In this document: in pieces, positions 4,714-11,111 of the stretch
Position numbering within the stretch: position 1 is the first letter of the stretch
Layout of the letters: the number at the start of each line of letters is the position of its first letter
NCBI GenBank assembly: GCA_028867785.1
Contig: JAGWFS010000008.1
Location: forward strand, 1-64,000
DNA from: Nitrososphaerota archaeon
Lineage (GTDB): Archaea > Thermoproteota > Nitrososphaeria > Nitrososphaerales > Nitrosopumilaceae
Length of the DNA: 64,000 nucleotides
Direction: 5' to 3'
Position numbers and translations under genes: made by a program
The notes under the pieces: model-generated
Seen by the model: the letters and a program-made list of their open reading frames with translations, nothing else
Told to the model about the DNA's origin: nothing
Database searches by the model: none

Positions 4714-5289
4714 GTGTACCGTACTGGTGATCTAGATGTAGCCATCATGGTAACAGAAAAGAACACAAACAGGCACAAAACTGTACATTGCTCATTTAGG
4801 GCAAATGAAAACACACTACTGGAACTAGAAAAAGAATCAGCAACAAGGAACATCCATACAAGCAGCCTGATAAACGAAATACTGGATGCATACGTCAGCC
4901 ATTCCAGGCATTTTGAACAGCTGGAATTTGTACCGGTACCTAAGGACTTTTTAAGAAAATGGATCCCTAGAATAAGCAAGATTGGCCTTGAAAAAGACGC
5001 AAGGGAACTTGGTGTCGTAATAGCAAGGGAGTACATATCGTATTTTTTTGAGGATGTCAATGGTCGGACACTTGCAGAATTTCTGGATGTGTGGCTTGGC
5101 CGTCTGGGACCTCACCAGCACAAAATAAAAGATGGGACACATTGGTACGCGGTCAACCACGACATTAACATGCAGTTTTCAATTCATCTGAAAGAATTTC
5201 TTTCTGCGTTAATTGAATCGATAACCATGAAACCCGTAAGATTCATTGAAGTAACGCCAAACGTTGTGACATTTTCTTTTGAAGTCTGA
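4714..5289 (+). CDS. Ribbon-helix-helix transcriptional regulator
   Basis: 191 residues, or 180 from the ATG at 4747, which is the likelier start because the RHH domain begins right after it. The N-terminal strand HKTVHCSFRANENTLLELEK followed by helices ESATRNIHTSSLINEILDAYV is the classic RHH/CopG layout. A second domain of about 130 residues (FLRKWIPRIS...LAEFLDVWLGRLGPHQHKI) is of unknown fold and is probably for dimerisation or sensing. The gene ends 11 bases before the four-copy 10-bp iteron array. RHH repressors commonly bind short tandem direct repeats, so it is the best candidate for the iteron-binding protein (inference). A truncated relative of its N-terminus is at 7990. Confidence 0.7.
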   Translation: MYRTGDLDVAIMVTEKNTNRHKTVHCSFRANENTLLELEKESATRNIHTSSLINEILDAYVSHSRHFEQLEFVPVPKDFLRKWIPRISKIGLEKDARELGVVIAREYISYFFEDVNGRTLAEFLDVWLGRLGPHQHKIKDGTHWYAVNHDINMQFSIHLKEFLSALIESITMKPVRFIEVTPNVVTFSFEV

Positions 5290-5299
5290 TTTCTGTTCC

Positions 5300-5339
5300 A
5301 CGTTGTGGGACAATGTGGGACATTGTCGAACATTGTAGA
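5300..5339. promoter_or_regulatory. Four 10-bp iterons, copy B
   Basis: Four head-to-tail decamers: ACGTTGTGGG, ACAATGTGGG, ACATTGTCGA, ACATTGTAGA, ending 4 bases before the box A-like CTCTTTATCTAG. The order and the last unit match the three-copy array at 2461-2490. The array lies immediately downstream of the RHH regulator gene and upstream of the secreted gene at 5383. Confidence 0.65.
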
Positions 5340-5402
5340 CATCCTCTTTATCTAGTTTGTATGTTGTACCGTAGACAATAACATGAAAATACAGAACAAC
5401 AA
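5321..5402 (+). repeat. Duplicated promoter + signal-peptide cassette, copy B
   Basis: Second copy of the 2472-2553 cassette. It has the same box A-like element, the same leader with a few substitutions, the same ATG context and the same first seven codons (MKIQNNK). Confidence 0.75.
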
Positions 5403-5646
5403 AAAAATTGCAACAACAATAACAGCTGCAATATTAATTGGTTTTATATTATTGACACCAATCACAATTTTGCCTACCATTAACGCCCAAGAAGATAGAC
5501 GTATAATACACCAAAAGGGTGTCCAATTGCCACTGCAGACAAACAAATCACATAGAGACAATCTTCTGCTTGGTGAAAGCATAGCCTCCATCAGTGGAGG
5601 CAACAAAACGCTGATAGATATGGAATATACTGTATCAAGTAACTAG
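5383..5646 (+). CDS. Secreted protein, N-terminal part (frame broken at about 5640)
   Basis: 87 codons. The signal peptide is MKIQNNKKIATTITAAILIG plus hydrophobic residues, with a likely cleavage at INAQED (about residue 35). The frame ends in TAG at 5644-5646, but coding continues without a break in the next frame from 5618, leading directly into the 5702-6259 segment (TSTWNSGCTSNCLVYEDAYF bridges the gap). The two pieces are almost certainly one gene split by a frameshift of one base (or two) near 5620-5650. No homopolymer lies at the break, so a slippage-type sequencing error is not obvious. The product would have been a secreted beta-rich protein of about 290 residues under the shared iteron promoter. 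Confidence 0.6.
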   Translation: MKIQNNKKIATTITAAILIGFILLTPITILPTINAQEDRRIIHQKGVQLPLQTNKSHRDNLLLGESIASISGGNKTLIDMEYTVSSN

Positions 5647-5701
5647 TACTTGGAATAGTGGTTGTACTTCAAACTGTCTCGTCTATGAAGACGCATATTT
5701 T

Positions 5702-6259
5702 GTGAATGGAGTAGGTACAGATAATTATTGGTATCAATGTGGCTTGATGGAATTACAGCCAAGCGGTAACTGGGTAATAAATCTAGAAGTATACAGTTCA
5801 TCGGGAGGACAAATTCAAAACACGGCTTCTAGCACGACTATTCCAGCAGGTACTAGTGTTACATTGAAGCTCAGTGTACCAAACTATTCAGGAGGTAGCA
5901 ATGTTCAATGTGAAGGTGATTGGGGCAGTACAGGTGTGGTTCTAGATGCAACAAATTCTCCACCTTCTGCATTTGTAGAGACTTCAGCTATTACTCCTGG
6001 TCCTGGTTTTCTAACTGGAGTAATATCTGAATATACAACAGGTGGTACTGGAGTAAGTTTGGGTACAATGCATTATAACAACCCGAAATTAATTGATTCA
6101 GGTAAAGTATCTCAATCCACAAGTACGGTGAATCTCAATACATACCCCGGACCTGGTTATACTATTACACAATCTGGTGTACAAAATATTCCATATACAT
6201 TCAATTCACAGACATACACCGTAAGCGTTGATTCTTCCGGTCAGGTATCGACAAGCTAA
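5702..6259 (+). CDS. Secreted beta-rich protein, C-terminal part of the split gene
   Basis: 185 codons from a GTG, although the open frame extends back to 5618. The content is strand-forming and Gly/Ser/Thr-rich (WYQCGLMELQPSGNWVINLEV, SSTTIPAGTSVTLKLSVPNY), with cysteines at YQC and VQCEGDW. The alternating pattern with a W-Y-Q-C-G start recalls concanavalin-like or eqolisin-like beta sandwiches, but I do not see diagnostic catalytic residues. It lacks its own signal peptide, which sits in the upstream frame (5383-5646). As it stands the C-terminal part is unlikely to be exported unless the frames are joined. Confidence 0.55.
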   Translation: MNGVGTDNYWYQCGLMELQPSGNWVINLEVYSSSGGQIQNTASSTTIPAGTSVTLKLSVPNYSGGSNVQCEGDWGSTGVVLDATNSPPSAFVETSAITPGPGFLTGVISEYTTGGTGVSLGTMHYNNPKLIDSGKVSQSTSTVNLNTYPGPGYTITQSGVQNIPYTFNSQTYTVSVDSSGQVSTS

Positions 6260-6385
6260 AACCAAAAATCCAATTTTTTTATTTGTATTAATTCAGAATG
6301 ATGTTTGATTGAAGAATTTTAAATCACACATTGACATGTTGCACCTATGATTTGTTTATAGAAATATTTTACATAATATTTTTTA

Positions 6386-6841
6386 ATGATGGTTTTCTAT
6401 CGAAGCAAAATGACAAATAAATATTATCTGTTTAATGTTTTGGCAATTCTACTGATTTTCATCAGTTTTTTTCCTGGGATTAATAATTCACTTGGGTATA
6501 CTTTTCAAACAACTAGGATAGCAACAGTGTCTAATGCTGCAACGTATGGTTCTCCAAGAATTGGGGATCAACTGTTTATAATAACTACCGTGCAAAATTT
6601 ATCTCCGCAACCAATGAATTTTTCGTATATTACAGAAGTTTTTAATGAGCAAGGGTCCGTTGTAAGTCTAAAATGGTTCAAGGATTATCTGAAAAGTATG
6701 GAAAAAAGAGATTTATCAAACAGTTGGATTCCTGACATGTCGGGTAATTATACCGCGGCATCATTTGTCTGGAAAGACGTTACAAATTCAGAGATCCCAC
6801 TAAGCAATTCACTTAGCATTCATATCAAAGTTAGACAATAA
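6386..6841 (+). CDS. Exported/membrane-anchored protein, 151 aa
   Basis: Start candidates are the ATGs at 6386, 6389 and 6410; the last (MTNKYYLFNVLAILLIFISF) gives the cleanest signal sequence. After the hydrophobic N-terminus comes one Ig/CARDB-like domain (GDQLFIITTVQNLSPQPMNF, a V/I-x-V-x-N-x-S-x-x-P pattern, and MSGNYTAASFVW) that in Nitrososphaerota occurs in many surface proteins. No cysteine pair and no catalytic motif. AT-rich upstream sequence (TTTATAGAAATATTTT, from 6354) supplies a box A. It stands alone between the split secreted gene and a decayed gene. Confidence 0.6.
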   Translation: MMVFYRSKMTNKYYLFNVLAILLIFISFFPGINNSLGYTFQTTRIATVSNAATYGSPRIGDQLFIITTVQNLSPQPMNFSYITEVFNEQGSVVSLKWFKDYLKSMEKRDLSNSWIPDMSGNYTAASFVWKDVTNSEIPLSNSLSIHIKVRQ

Positions 6842-7033
6842 TGAAATCGTATCATGCAGTAATCTAACGCATGTTTCATTGGATTAGTTTAGGAGAATAA
6901 ATTTCCACCATGATGGGTCTTACCCATCAAATGCGATCTAACTCTCTACCTTGATCCCATATACGCACAAGCTAACAAAAAAGATGTTGGTAATGCTCAT
7001 TGATCGACTAGAATTCAAAAATCCATGATTATC

Positions 7034-7348
7034 TCAAACTGTATGTAACATTAAAACCACGACTTGTGCGTGTTCTTTCTTATCTTTCAATTCCTTGGTT
7101 ATGTCTTCTGGTTTGATACTGTGACCTTTTGTAGCGTGTGAGGCGCATTGTGCAAGTATGTCTTCCTGCGTCTTTGTACTTGAATTTTAGCTACATGCTA
7201 ACCTGTAACATTGTAACAATTTCCAAACTTCCCTACTCTGTCCTATTTTGTATTCAAGACTTTGTATCTCGATCACCTGCTTGTAGACCTCTTCCATGCA
7301 TGACATGCAACTGTCAGTTCCGTCTGATGATATCATTACATGTACCAT
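7034..7348 (-). pseudogene. Small gene after the HTH regulator, interrupted by an in-frame TAA
   Basis: The start ATG at 7348 overlaps the stop of the HTH gene (TAATG), i.e. translational coupling. The first 53 codons include a C-x-x-C (DSCMSCMEEVYKQVIEIQS) and end in TAA at 7187. The same frame then continues with clear coding character, TKTQEDILAQCASHATKGHS followed by IKPEDITKELKDKKEHAQVVV, to a TGA at 7034. The full 104-residue protein is therefore probably interrupted by one nonsense mutation; alternatively only the 53-residue front is made. Family not recognised. The position suggests a partner of the regulator. Confidence 0.5.
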
Positions 7349-7812
7349 TACATGCATCTTGACATGAACCTGACAATTTCTTCCGGACTAAACTTTGAGC
7401 TTCGATACAGTATCTCTGCAGCCTTTAGCTTGCCTGTATTGGAAACCATCTCTTCCAGATCAAGTATGCATCTCTTGTAGACGAGGTTTCCAAATAGGGT
7501 TGTAGTGTATACTGGCGAACAATCCATGCCTTTCCTGCTCTCAGACATTTCCATCTTTTCCACCAGATTCAGATCTACCAGCTGCCTAAGCCTTGTATAG
7601 TACTGCTTTTTTGTCAGGCCTATTTCCGAGGGAGTACCGGTATTTGATCTCAGCCCCTTCCTTGCAAGAGAGAGGATCTTCAGCGCGTCAGGTCTTGACA
7701 GCAGAAAGAACAGTTCAAGCATACGCTGTGTAACTATATCTCCATCGATAGACGACATAACCTGTGTCGCACGCATTGAAAGCGGCTCGTTCATTGATTG
7801 TGTTTTACCCAA
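7348..7812 (-). CDS. Winged-helix transcriptional regulator
   Basis: 154 residues. The central region LFFLLSRPDALKILSLARKG, then LTKKQYYTRLRQLVDLNLVEKM and SPVYTTTLFGNLVYKRC, is a winged helix-turn-helix. The recognition helix is KKQYYTRLRQLVDLNLV and the wing is the SPVYTTT hairpin. This is the common Nitrososphaerota ArsR/DUF-type regulator layout with a C-terminal helical tail (ILDLEEMVSNTGKLKAAEIL). An interrupted small gene begins on its stop codon. It is divergent from the RHH fragment at 7990, and the 177-bp gap between them carries two inverted repeats. Confidence 0.7.
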   Translation of the reverse strand: MGKTQSMNEPLSMRATQVMSSIDGDIVTQRMLELFFLLSRPDALKILSLARKGLRSNTGTPSEIGLTKKQYYTRLRQLVDLNLVEKMEMSESRKGMDCSPVYTTTLFGNLVYKRCILDLEEMVSNTGKLKAAEILYRSSKFSPEEIVRFMSRCM

Positions 7813-7877
7813 ATCGCTACTACAGATCAGGTGTACCGGACTTGCATATTAACTTTAGCAAATTCGAGGGAGCCGAT

Positions 7878-7970
7878 ACCTGCGAGTTAGTAGCAGGTGA
7901 ATCATTTGCACTGGGTATGTAATAATTGAAAACATACGCCAGACTTAAGTAGAAGATGTCCCGTACGGGA
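7878..7970. promoter_or_regulatory. Inverted repeats between divergent regulator genes
   Basis: ACCTGC - 9 nt - GCAGGT at 7878-7898, and a perfect 12-bp palindrome TCCCGTACGGGA at 7959-7970, 20 bases before the ATG at 7990. Both lie in the gap between the winged-helix gene and the RHH fragment, where operators would be expected. Confidence 0.45.
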
Positions 7971-7989
7971 TCAACGATGATACGACATA

Positions 7990-8187
7990 ATGTCAGATGA
8001 CGATCTCAAAAGGACAGTCCACTATTCGTGCAGGTTAGGTGCAGACATATATCAAACACTGCATGCGGATGCAAAACAAAAGAACGTCTCTATGAACAAT
8101 ATTCTGAATCAAGTAGGAGTGGAACACTCACAAGCATCTATATCCCATACAGTACAGGCAGTGGCGAATATTACTTCGACAACATGA
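7990..8187 (+). CDS. Truncated ribbon-helix-helix protein, 65 aa
   Basis: Residues 1-41 match the RHH start of the 4714 regulator (KRTVHYSCRLGADIYQTLHA, then KQKNVSMNNILNQ): basic strand, helix, turn, helix. After residue 41 the sequence loses RHH character (VGVEHSQASISHTVQAVANI) and ends. The 4714 relative has a further C-terminal domain that is absent here. From 8118 another frame encodes a secreted-type tail. This looks like a regulator gene truncated by a deletion that fused it to the end of another gene. It might still make a DNA-binding domain, possibly acting at the adjacent palindrome. Confidence 0.45.
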   Translation: MSDDDLKRTVHYSCRLGADIYQTLHADAKQKNVSMNNILNQVGVEHSQASISHTVQAVANITSTT

Positions 8188-8291
8188 CAAATCCATATCC
8201 CCAGAACACATATCAGAATACAGTTGTTGGAATACCAACCAGCGGTGGAACATACTACACATTGTGGAATACAAGTCAAGGTACATATTAG
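8118..8291 (+). pseudogene. C-terminal remnant of a secreted protein
   Basis: Frame beginning SGTLTSIYIPYSTGSGEYYF and ending GGTYYTLWNTSQGTY, TAG at 8289. Strand-rich Gly/Ser/Thr/Tyr composition like the neighbouring secreted proteins, but with no start codon or signal peptide of its own. It overlaps the end of the truncated RHH frame, consistent with a deletion junction near 8115. Confidence 0.4.
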
Positions 8292-8395
8292 TACCTCCTT
8301 TACATCTTTTTATTTTAACGAAATAAGAATTAAGCCAGAACAAAGTCTGATGAAAATATACACCAATTTTAAATTGTAACAAAACGGTACAAAAC

Positions 8396-9460
8396 ATGTT
8401 GAGATCTAATCTGATTTTTTCTTTTATGATTCTAGTCTCAATGGTTTTTGCATGCATGTTGACAGTTACAAATGTGTCAGGAATGGATGATGTAAAAAAT
8501 GATATTTCGAACACACCCAAAGTGGATTCCAGAGTTTTGTTAGCAATTGAAAAAAGAGACACCACAAGTGATAATTTTTATACGCTAGTAGATGTAATCC
8601 TTGAAAACTCAAGTTATGCTTCACTTATGCCAAAAGATGTTGATATTATTTACTCAAAAAACAATATCATTGGAGTGACAGCAGACTACAGTCAAATCAT
8701 AAAACTTGCAACACTTAATTTTGTAGAACAAATAACAACTCCAAATGGTGTGTTTTCTAAAGATTCCAACGCTAGCATCTCAAACCCCCCATCCCCACTT
8801 GAACAGTATAAGGCTGGAATCATGCCAATTTACGTCAAATGCAAATACGGATTTGGTTTGTTAATACGGGAGAAGTTTAATGTTAGTGAATCGCATCTCG
8901 TTCCTGCCTGCTTCAAGGGAAATGATGAATCCAAAGCTCAGAATAGAGGAATAGGAAAGATTGTCAATAATCTGGTTAAGACCAAATATTGGGATCTTTA
9001 TGGTTTGCTTCCTTCACGTAAATCGTTTTTAATTGAATCAAATTCTACTGGACAAATCGTTGTAAAATATTACCCTTATTATAATAACAATGAAACAAGA
9101 CAGATAAAGCCGCAAGTTTTTCTTGATTATGGTACAAACGGTTCGCCAATAAATACATCGAATGTAGTCATATCTGCCATCCCTGACGCTGTTTCTGACA
9201 ATTTGGGACAAAACACTACTGTTGCCTATACAATAAAAACTTCAAACATAAAAGGCCTGTACTGGCTCCACATCCCACTGAATGGATGTAATGACGTATA
9301 TCCTCTAATAGTGGGTCTTGACCCAACTAGTATTTCAACCGCAGATATTTCTACATACATAGGTACAATACACTGTCCTTCAATAGATATGGGCGGCCAA
9401 ATAGAAAATACCTCAGGAATTTCTGTAAAATGGTTGTTAGCAGAACCATTTTTCAATTAA
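8396..9460 (+). CDS. Secreted protein, 354 aa, unknown family
   Basis: N-terminal signal peptide (MLRSNLIFSFMILVSMVFAC, cleavage near VSG, about residue 29). The mature part is long, with at least eight N-x-S/T sequons and a few cysteines (KCKYGFG, PACFKG, NGCNDVY, IHCPS). The segment IMPIYVKCKYGFGLLIREKF followed by VPACFKG resembles the K-x-x-DG-x-x-ACV-like C-terminal modules of other Nitrososphaerota exported proteins. The C-terminal 120 residues look like an Ig-type domain (VAYTIKTSNIKGLYWLHIPL). No anchor is visible at the C-terminus, so it may be released. Intact frame, unlike the genes on either side. Confidence 0.6.
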   Translation: MLRSNLIFSFMILVSMVFACMLTVTNVSGMDDVKNDISNTPKVDSRVLLAIEKRDTTSDNFYTLVDVILENSSYASLMPKDVDIIYSKNNIIGVTADYSQIIKLATLNFVEQITTPNGVFSKDSNASISNPPSPLEQYKAGIMPIYVKCKYGFGLLIREKFNVSESHLVPACFKGNDESKAQNRGIGKIVNNLVKTKYWDLYGLLPSRKSFLIESNSTGQIVVKYYPYYNNNETRQIKPQVFLDYGTNGSPINTSNVVISAIPDAVSDNLGQNTTVAYTIKTSNIKGLYWLHIPLNGCNDVYPLIVGLDPTSISTADISTYIGTIHCPSIDMGGQIENTSGISVKWLLAEPFFN

Positions 9461-9478
9461 TTCACACAAACATTGTAG

Positions 9479-9857
9479 AATACAATACAGCAGATACGAA
9501 TACAGGGCGGTGCACGACCAAGAACACGACCTGTTGCAGTTTATGTAGACAAGGCATTACGATTCAGACAAGATACGCAGCTTGATGCGACCTACACGGC
9601 ATTTCTCAATCTGGCATCGTTTCTGATTTACTGGAGGGTTTTGGGATGAGTTCTCGGTACAATTTGATAACAAACTGGAAACATATACTGGACGAGTAAA
9701 TGCTACTGTTACATTCAATTATGAGGTACTAGATAAAGCTGAAAGCCTCGTAACACACAAGGGATTTTTGGTACGACCAGCACCATTATTACACGAACAT
9801 CTAACCGGCTCCGTAGAAATCATCAACAATAAACAGGAAATTACACACATCCTGTGA
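9479..9857 (+). pseudogene. Frameshifted remnant gene
   Basis: Frame 1 (9479-9649) reads GGARPRTRPVAVYVDKALRF then RQDTQLDATYTAFLNLASF and runs into TGA. Frame 2 (9627-9857) continues FWDEFSVQFDNKLETYTGRV and then LDKAESLVTHKGFLVRPAPL to TGA at 9855. Together they would make about 120 residues with coding composition, broken near 9627. No start codon is present in the first frame. Family not recognised. Confidence 0.45.
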
Positions 9858-10014
9858 CAGTTGTACGCCAGTACACGATACAACAGTCAATGGTTGGACA
9901 TCGAACAATCCATTTAATCCCGCTGATGGCGATACCTCGTCAATCGATTGCGCTCTGACAATAACCACTGGCACAAATAACGCGGCTACAGATACAATGA
10001 ATTACTGCGGCTAG
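9838..10014 (+). pseudogene. C-terminal remnant of a Cys-containing secreted protein
   Basis: Open frame without a start, containing HTSCDSCTPVHDTTVNGWTS and ending with NAATDTMNYCG and TAG at 10012. The Thr/Asn/Gly composition with paired cysteines is like the secreted proteins at 2534 and 5702. Overlaps the tail of the preceding remnant in another frame. Confidence 0.4.
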
Positions 10015-10164
10015 GAATACCTACCTAAACTGCTGCAAGTACTCCCTTTTTATTTTATGATAAGTCATAAAGCAGATGGTGTATTGTTGTTCATCCACAG
10101 AATTTTTTGAGCAAAATAACACTGAACACTACGAACTTTTAAATGATCTTGACCTTATTATAAC

Positions 10165-10725
10165 GTGATATACATCATATCCGGTTTATTGATATTACTT
10201 TTAATTGGTGCTTTTTTACCAAACATATACGCAACAGGCATACCAATTGAACCTCAAACTATTTTTGGCAGACTGGATGATACCAAAGTGTCAAAACAAT
10301 CAATTAAGACGGGAGAGACTATGACTATAAGCGGAAATATTACTAGCATGACACCAAAAAATCTTACAGGCTGGTTTATGATACAGTCTGCGCCTGGCCC
10401 TATTGGAAGATTGGAGATAGAAAACGACTCTGCAAAAATGATGATCAATATTCCAGCCTTTTCAAGAATCCCATACTCTCTTACCATCAAGGCACTACAG
10501 CCAGGAATTTATCATCTATCTCCTCTTTTACACATTATTGAAACGAATCGCATATTTTCAATTTCCACAGATTCTAATCTGGAACCTGTAATTACTGTAA
10601 GAGGTAATCCTATATGCAGTCATGGATTTGTTTCCATAATCAAAGTTGACGACGGTTCTTCTGCCTGCGTAACACCTGACACTGCAAATATTTTGGTGGA
10701 ACGTGGCTGGAGTCATCTACCGTAA
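10165..10725 (+). CDS. AmoB-like exported protein lacking most copper-site histidines
   Basis: 186 residues from a GTG. Signal peptide 1-24. The mature part follows archaeal AmoB as I remember it: KQSIKTGETMTISGNITSMT...LTGW (44-70), IPAFSRIPYSLTIKALQPGI then YHL (96-118), i.e. the AmoB core of Q-S-I-K-T-G-x-T-x-T-I-x-G and I-P-Y-S-L-T-V-K-A-L-x-P-G-V-Y-H-V-H. Archaeal AmoB has His as the first mature residues (AHG) and H-x-H after Y; here these are ATG and HLS, so only one of three ligands (His117) remains. AmoB's final membrane helix is replaced by CSHGFVSIIKVDDGSSACVT...LVERGW (151-182), a module seen at the end of other exported Nitrososphaerota proteins. Probably a paralogue with a changed role. 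Similarity is from memory, not a search. Confidence 0.55.
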   Translation: MIYIISGLLILLLIGAFLPNIYATGIPIEPQTIFGRLDDTKVSKQSIKTGETMTISGNITSMTPKNLTGWFMIQSAPGPIGRLEIENDSAKMMINIPAFSRIPYSLTIKALQPGIYHLSPLLHIIETNRIFSISTDSNLEPVITVRGNPICSHGFVSIIKVDDGSSACVTPDTANILVERGWSHLP

Positions 10726-11111
10726 ATTAAAGACGAACTTTCCAGCCTTACGCTACGCTCGTCATCCATCCACTTATTCTCACACCATTAATTTACAAAA
10801 GGCCGATATTTTGAGACTTGAGAAGCATAAAGGGTATTGAAACAAGCGGAATTATTTTTTCCTTAGAACTTGAAATTCTTTAAAGTACAAACATCAGGTA
10901 ACAATTTTCATAAAACAATATAAGATCAAATTTCATTTCTACAATCATGCAGAAACAATTGCCTAAAAGGCGGATTTGAACTTTGCAAGGATGAGAACAA
11001 GTATTCTTGCCGTGTATGAAAAAAATTATTCATTGTGGGGTTCCAAAATGCTTATAGACCCCAAGGGCGCTTACACTTTTCTTTAACAATATGAAGTGAC
11101 AAATTGCCTTT
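10726..11111. other. Intergenic, boundary of accessory and core regions
   Basis: No credible gene. A short Cys-rich frame (about 10935-11022, LQSCRNNCLKGGFELC followed by KYSC) has no start codon and may be a relic. The convergent orientation of the flanking genes suggests terminators here; no clear hairpin plus T-run was found. Confidence 0.35.

Follow-up and report, generated by a model that had tools for sequence, protein, structure and literature searches.

AmoB is a subunit of the ammonia monooxygenase (AMO) complex and is usually encoded in a single copy in ammonia-oxidizing archaea (AOA). The window analyzed here, a stretch of 64,000 nucleotides, contains a 186-codon gene whose product resembles AmoB but differs from it at copper ligand positions and at the C terminus. 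The locus raises the question of whether this product is AmoB in function or in descent only and, if the latter, what kind of protein it has become.

A gene for an AmoB-like protein lies in a variable region

Contig C316, which contains the window, is part of a 2.5-Mb genome that most likely belongs to "Candidatus Nitrosotalea," an ammonia-oxidizing archaeon of acid soil. The description of "Ca. N. bavarica" (PMC5767755) does not match this genome, as no RuBisCO was found in it. Contig C316 also encodes an intact AmoB at about 69925-70497 (-), outside the window and ~59 kb away from the gene studied here. The features of the locus are as follows.

4714..11060, strand not given: variable region containing the AmoB-like gene; right edge placed by genome comparison, left edge provisional
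8396..9460, +: neighboring gene for a probable exported protein with a degenerate WING-49 at residues 134-187
10136..10144, +: TATA-like CTTTTAAAT, some 25 nt ahead of the GTG start
10165..10725, +: AmoB-like/WING-49 gene; GTG start, 186 aa plus stop
10165..10233, +: predicted signal peptide, residues 1-23; hydrophobic N terminus, putative cleavage
10234..10608, +: AmoB-like beta-sandwich, residues 24-148, from sequence matches, the AlphaFold model and Foldseek
10234..10236, +: Thr24 codon, aligned with the copper-binding N-terminal His of AmoB
10513..10515, +: His117 codon; the first of the two H-x-H His of AmoB, retained in this protein
10519..10521, +: Ser119 codon; replaces the other H-x-H His, which no family member retains
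10615..10710, +: WING-49 core, Cys151-Trp182; predicted beta-beta-alpha, NF058652 match

In the compared Nitrosotalea genomes, homology to the window ends at 11061 or slightly rightward, next to conserved genes; the genes that follow the variable region there (FBPase/IMPase-like gene, 11999 frame) are jointly conserved in other genomes of the genus. The AmoB-like gene is flanked by the gene for a WING protein and the FBPase/IMPase-like gene, and no amo genes adjoin it. The position of the TATA-like box suggests that its transcript is leaderless. The N terminus of the product is hydrophobic and forms a helix at residues 2-15 in the AlphaFold2 model, and we infer that the protein is exported; its signal start has no Lys or Arg, and its relatives begin MKTL.

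The product is related to AmoB by descent

A first-pass annotation, made from the sequence of the window, had claimed that residues 44-118 follow archaeal AmoB. The similarity in fact spans about residues 3-152, as BLASTP aligned the product with the AmoB of its own genome at 34% identity over 159 columns (residues 3-152, E 4e-26). The best PDB sequence match of the 186-aa product by phmmer was archaeal AmoB (4o65, E 2.4e-5), and Pfam Monooxygenase_B (PF04744) matched at E 8.7e-4, which is under the curated cutoff. Run against the PDB, a profile of the relatives, which contained no AmoB rows, gave E values of 2.5e-18 for 4o65 and 0.005 for pMMO subunit B. The AlphaFold2 model (mean pLDDT 81.6, pTM 0.66) comprised a beta-sandwich followed by a beta-beta-alpha unit. 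The annotation had also suggested a structural comparison; with Foldseek, ranks 1 to 10 against the PDB were all AmoB or PmoB, and Ig-like folds stood lower in the list. This fold result depends in part on the sequence result, because AmoB rows were present in the alignment from which the model was built. These data demonstrate that the 186-aa product is a true relative of AmoB by descent.

We searched genome contigs for further members; the single protein gave no match, and the alignment recovered the relatives. Eleven near-complete members plus one fragment were found in 7 of 37 "Ca. Nitrosotalea" genomes and none in the other 30, which are ammonia oxidizers too. Among 250 Nitrosopumilaceae genomes, no match outside Nitrosotalea scored clearly above true AmoBs, and one 191-aa frame of another genus scored right at the true-AmoB level. 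In the tree, the members formed one lineage separate from all AmoBs (support 100/97), with the longest branch (0.92) leading to the 186-aa protein. The private changes of its gene amounted to 0.27, 0.24 and 0.43 at codon positions 1, 2 and 3, similar to those of the relatives. Pairwise NG86 dN/dS values were roughly 0.3 to 0.5, on a long branch with synonymous sites near saturation. Separately, a Nitrososphaerales-type AmoB with masked stretches was seen on a "Candidatus Bathyarchaeota" contig (L062:4527-5144, +), probably through a binning error.

The copper ligand set is incomplete in every family member

The AmoB ligands H34, H129 and H131 were invariant in nine aligned AmoBs. In the 186-aa product, the corresponding columns contain T24 (N-terminal His) and H117 and S119 (H-x-H), as had been proposed for Thr24 and Ser119. 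Comparison with the family separated the two replacements. All 11 members, and the fragment too, have lost the second His of H-x-H, the members carrying Ser, Ala or Glu instead; this is the loss common to the family in the alignment. The N-terminal His, in contrast, was kept in nine members, the exceptions being Thr24 here and Ile in one other, so the Thr24 replacement holds for this protein but is not a mark of the family. The first His of H-x-H was kept in three members and was Lys, Arg or Tyr in the other eight. No member had all three copper His together. Judging from these residues, the AmoB-like domain probably binds no copper; because 9 of 11 members keep the N-terminal His, residual metal binding could occur in the family.

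Two additional Cys are present in each of the ten other members, within H-G-V-C and N-G-C in most, at positions where the 186-aa protein has Pro and Ser. Cys27 lies after the old N-terminal ligand and Cys138 after the old H-x-H strand, which suggests that in the relatives a disulfide between them may replace the tether formerly made by copper. The 186-aa protein would lack such a bond.

WING-49 takes the place of the membrane helix

The first-pass annotation had described the last AmoB membrane helix as replaced by a D-G-S-x-A-C-V/V-E-R-G-W module. The helix is indeed absent from the 186-aa product, and the module that replaces it is NCBIfam WING-49 (NF058652), matched at E 2.9e-11 and 43.3 bits (cutoff, 22) over profile positions 15-48 of 49. 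WING-49 begins at the point where the AmoB membrane segment would begin, and the protein stops four residues past the WING-49 core (SHLP), with no tail module. We counted 45 WING-49 matches in the host genome and found WING-49 in 59 of 398 genomes sampled from the phylum, all but one within the same family.

Several other WING proteins are of interest in their own right. A WING protein with an unrelated head (L106:1242-2273, +) ends RGWGHLP directly after WING, compared with RGWSHLP in the AmoB-like protein. Another WING-49 protein (L033:3724-4476, -) has an AmoB-like start (signal, HGVQ) that runs directly into WING, with no sandwich domain. An intergenic element, TTTAGACCAC[TC]G[GT]ATTGCAGTTGACTAAAAAACATT, is conserved between WING-49 genes in several genomes (L033, L034, L039, L042, L043, L045, L094 and L100) and was not seen in the window; it sits in a longer segment, about 110 nt, that is also conserved, and is perhaps a shared promoter or operator.

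Heads and tails re-assort at WING

We divided each WING protein from the host genome and the relatives' loci at WING and compared N sides and C sides separately. Among 36 two-sided proteins, the N sides were alike in 37 pairs and the C sides in 57; both were alike in only 2 pairs, compared with 3.3 expected at random. In a control, the Jaccard index was 0.68 for N-side halves, 0.29 for C-side halves and 0.02 for N versus C. Because the proteins from outside the host genome had been chosen for their AmoB-like head, the host genome was also tested alone, giving 9 N-side, 38 C-side and 1 both-side pairs (1.0 expected). N- and C-modules were thus no more linked than under random re-assortment, and the same N-module stood mostly with unrelated C-modules, and vice versa.

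At the DNA level, identity of 91 to 96% ends within WING or at its edge. One pair of relatives was 91% identical to nucleotide 566 of the open reading frame and then different (WING, 460-555), and a second was 96% identical through 638 (WING, 583-678). In pairs alike on the C side, likeness starts inside WING (at 1218, with WING at 1183-1278, and at 1162, with WING at 1117-1212). Pair counts and DNA breakpoints together mark WING as the site of head and tail exchange. These sequence comparisons demonstrate that heads and tails have re-assorted at WING and that several heads, the AmoB-like domain among them, are interchangeable; the others include PQQ, NHL and BNR-type propellers and Ig/PKD-like domains. 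The C-module of the neighboring protein (8396..9460, +) is related to those of other WING proteins. We claim no function for the tails, as the tail module of one relative was modeled with a pLDDT under 50. The suggestion of a stand-alone cupredoxin-like domain therefore gives way to that of a head in a two-module protein belonging to a re-assorting WING-49 repertoire.

Elsewhere in the window, positions 6560-6820 (+), in frame 6386-6841, are 30% identical over 90 aa to the head of a WING protein (L098:1267-2586). The frame has no WING and is perhaps a loose head.

A proposed origin and its alternatives

We consider it probable that a duplicated AmoB soluble domain, having lost its copper chemistry, was recruited as the non-catalytic exported head of a WING-49 protein. 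The soluble beta-sandwich of AmoB, together with the signal peptide, would have been duplicated and joined to WING-49 just past the last strand (V-x-G-x-P), where AmoB continues into its membrane helix. Decay of the copper site would then have followed, with the fold retained. Homologous recombination within the WING segment would be the means by which heads and tails are swapped, and the product would probably act outside the cell as a non-catalytic beta-sandwich head for binding or structure. Ancestry, ligand loss, the module boundary and re-assortment are the observed parts of this account; the first-pass annotation had arrived at the first two and at the replacement of the anchor, which sequence, profile, tree and fold comparisons support. 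A non-catalytic exported protein is what we infer as the best reading of the product, and the AmoB-like protein is probably AmoB by descent and not by function. The propellers and Ig-like folds of the other heads suggest, by analogy, a recognition, binding or structural role outside the cell.

Features peculiar to this member weigh against the proposed recruitment. Its branch is the longest in the tree, it lacks the Cys pair of its relatives and its signal peptide starts uncharged, all of which could reflect early decay. The gene might then be a decaying pseudogene, a formerly functional WING-49 protein drifting in the variable region, and the loss of the N-terminal His and the absence of a tail module fit the same reading. 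However, the 186-codon frame is open with a codon-position pattern like that of its relatives, the WING and sandwich core are intact, the TATA-like box stands at a suitable distance, and L106, a WING protein of the same genome, ends alike. We therefore consider decay to a pseudogene unlikely.

The domain could also serve as an AMO accessory protein or a copper carrier, docking on AMO or handling copper via a partial site made of the N-terminal His, the first His of H-x-H and Cys. Descent from an AMO subunit, the N-terminal His of nine members and the H117 retained here are consistent with such a role. The 186-aa product, however, has neither the N-terminal His nor the Cys pair, and only three members have the first His. 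Furthermore, 30 of the 37 Nitrosotalea genomes, themselves from ammonia oxidizers, yielded no family member; the tails of the family are swapped, and its genes lie in WING arrays, away from amo genes. An accessory or copper-carrying role thus appears quite improbable.

A divergent AmoB isoform that works in particular circumstances, comparable to the second AmoB of "Ca. Nitrosopumilus piranensis," would have a precedent in the divergent second amoB copy reported in that AOA in a passage of PMC5767755 citing Bayer 2016. The second AmoB that we found in G099 keeps A-H, H-I-H and the membrane helix, whereas the full ligand set and the helix are missing throughout the AmoB-like family; we rejected a working isoform on this basis as very improbable. 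An unrelated Ig-like beta-sandwich that came to resemble AmoB by convergence, for which one could cite the occurrence of Ig-like folds in other heads and at lower Foldseek ranks, was rejected as scarcely credible given E values of 4e-26 to AmoB and 2.5e-18 for the relatives' profile to 4o65 and motifs colinear with AmoB, K-A-L-x-P-G-x-Y-H among them.

Implications and comparison with known systems

Returning to the recruitment of a copper-stripped AmoB domain, we tentatively raise a broader idea, which is of rather low probability: WING-49 could be a dedicated recombination joint that diversifies exported recognition proteins in Nitrosopumilaceae, above all in Nitrosotalea, with the AmoB domain as one head. 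If so, the AmoB-derived head could serve in encounters with, for instance, viruses or rival cells. A copper-less AmoB family would mean that the fold is able to leave its enzyme complex, and non-enzymes may enter automated amoB annotations and gene tallies for acid-soil archaea. The re-assortment of head, WING and tail offers a concrete and testable example of how exported proteins of archaea exchange domains in new combinations. In the open-license papers that we searched, we found no copper-less AmoB relatives, no head and tail shuffling of this kind in AOA and no mention of WING-49.

The Thermococcales hypervariable Ig-domain module, as outlined in PMC8416519, likewise involves variable beta-sandwich proteins in archaeal gene modules; it belongs to another lineage, has another layout, and is likened here by description only. 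With "Ca. N. piranensis," as reported in the passage noted above, the host shares a divergent extra AmoB copy in an AOA. The second AmoB of G099 (L092:1343-1909, -), which is probably "Ca. N. piranensis," differs in retaining the three His and a membrane helix with a Lys/Arg-rich end. With other WING-49 proteins (NF058652), the AmoB-like protein shares a C-terminal module above the cutoff and putative export, and its genome has many WING-49 copies, several of them arrayed; the AmoB-like head and the role of WING as a joint for re-assortment are not described in the literature searched. With archaeal AmoB (4O65; PF04744), it shares a probable signal peptide, the AmoB-type beta-sandwich and the motifs F-x-R-x-D-D, T-G-x-T, K-A-L-x-P-G-x-Y-H and V-x-G-x-P. 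Unlike archaeal AmoB, it is encoded outside the amo cluster, matches below the Pfam cutoff, lacks the CuB ligand set and has WING-49 in place of the membrane helix.
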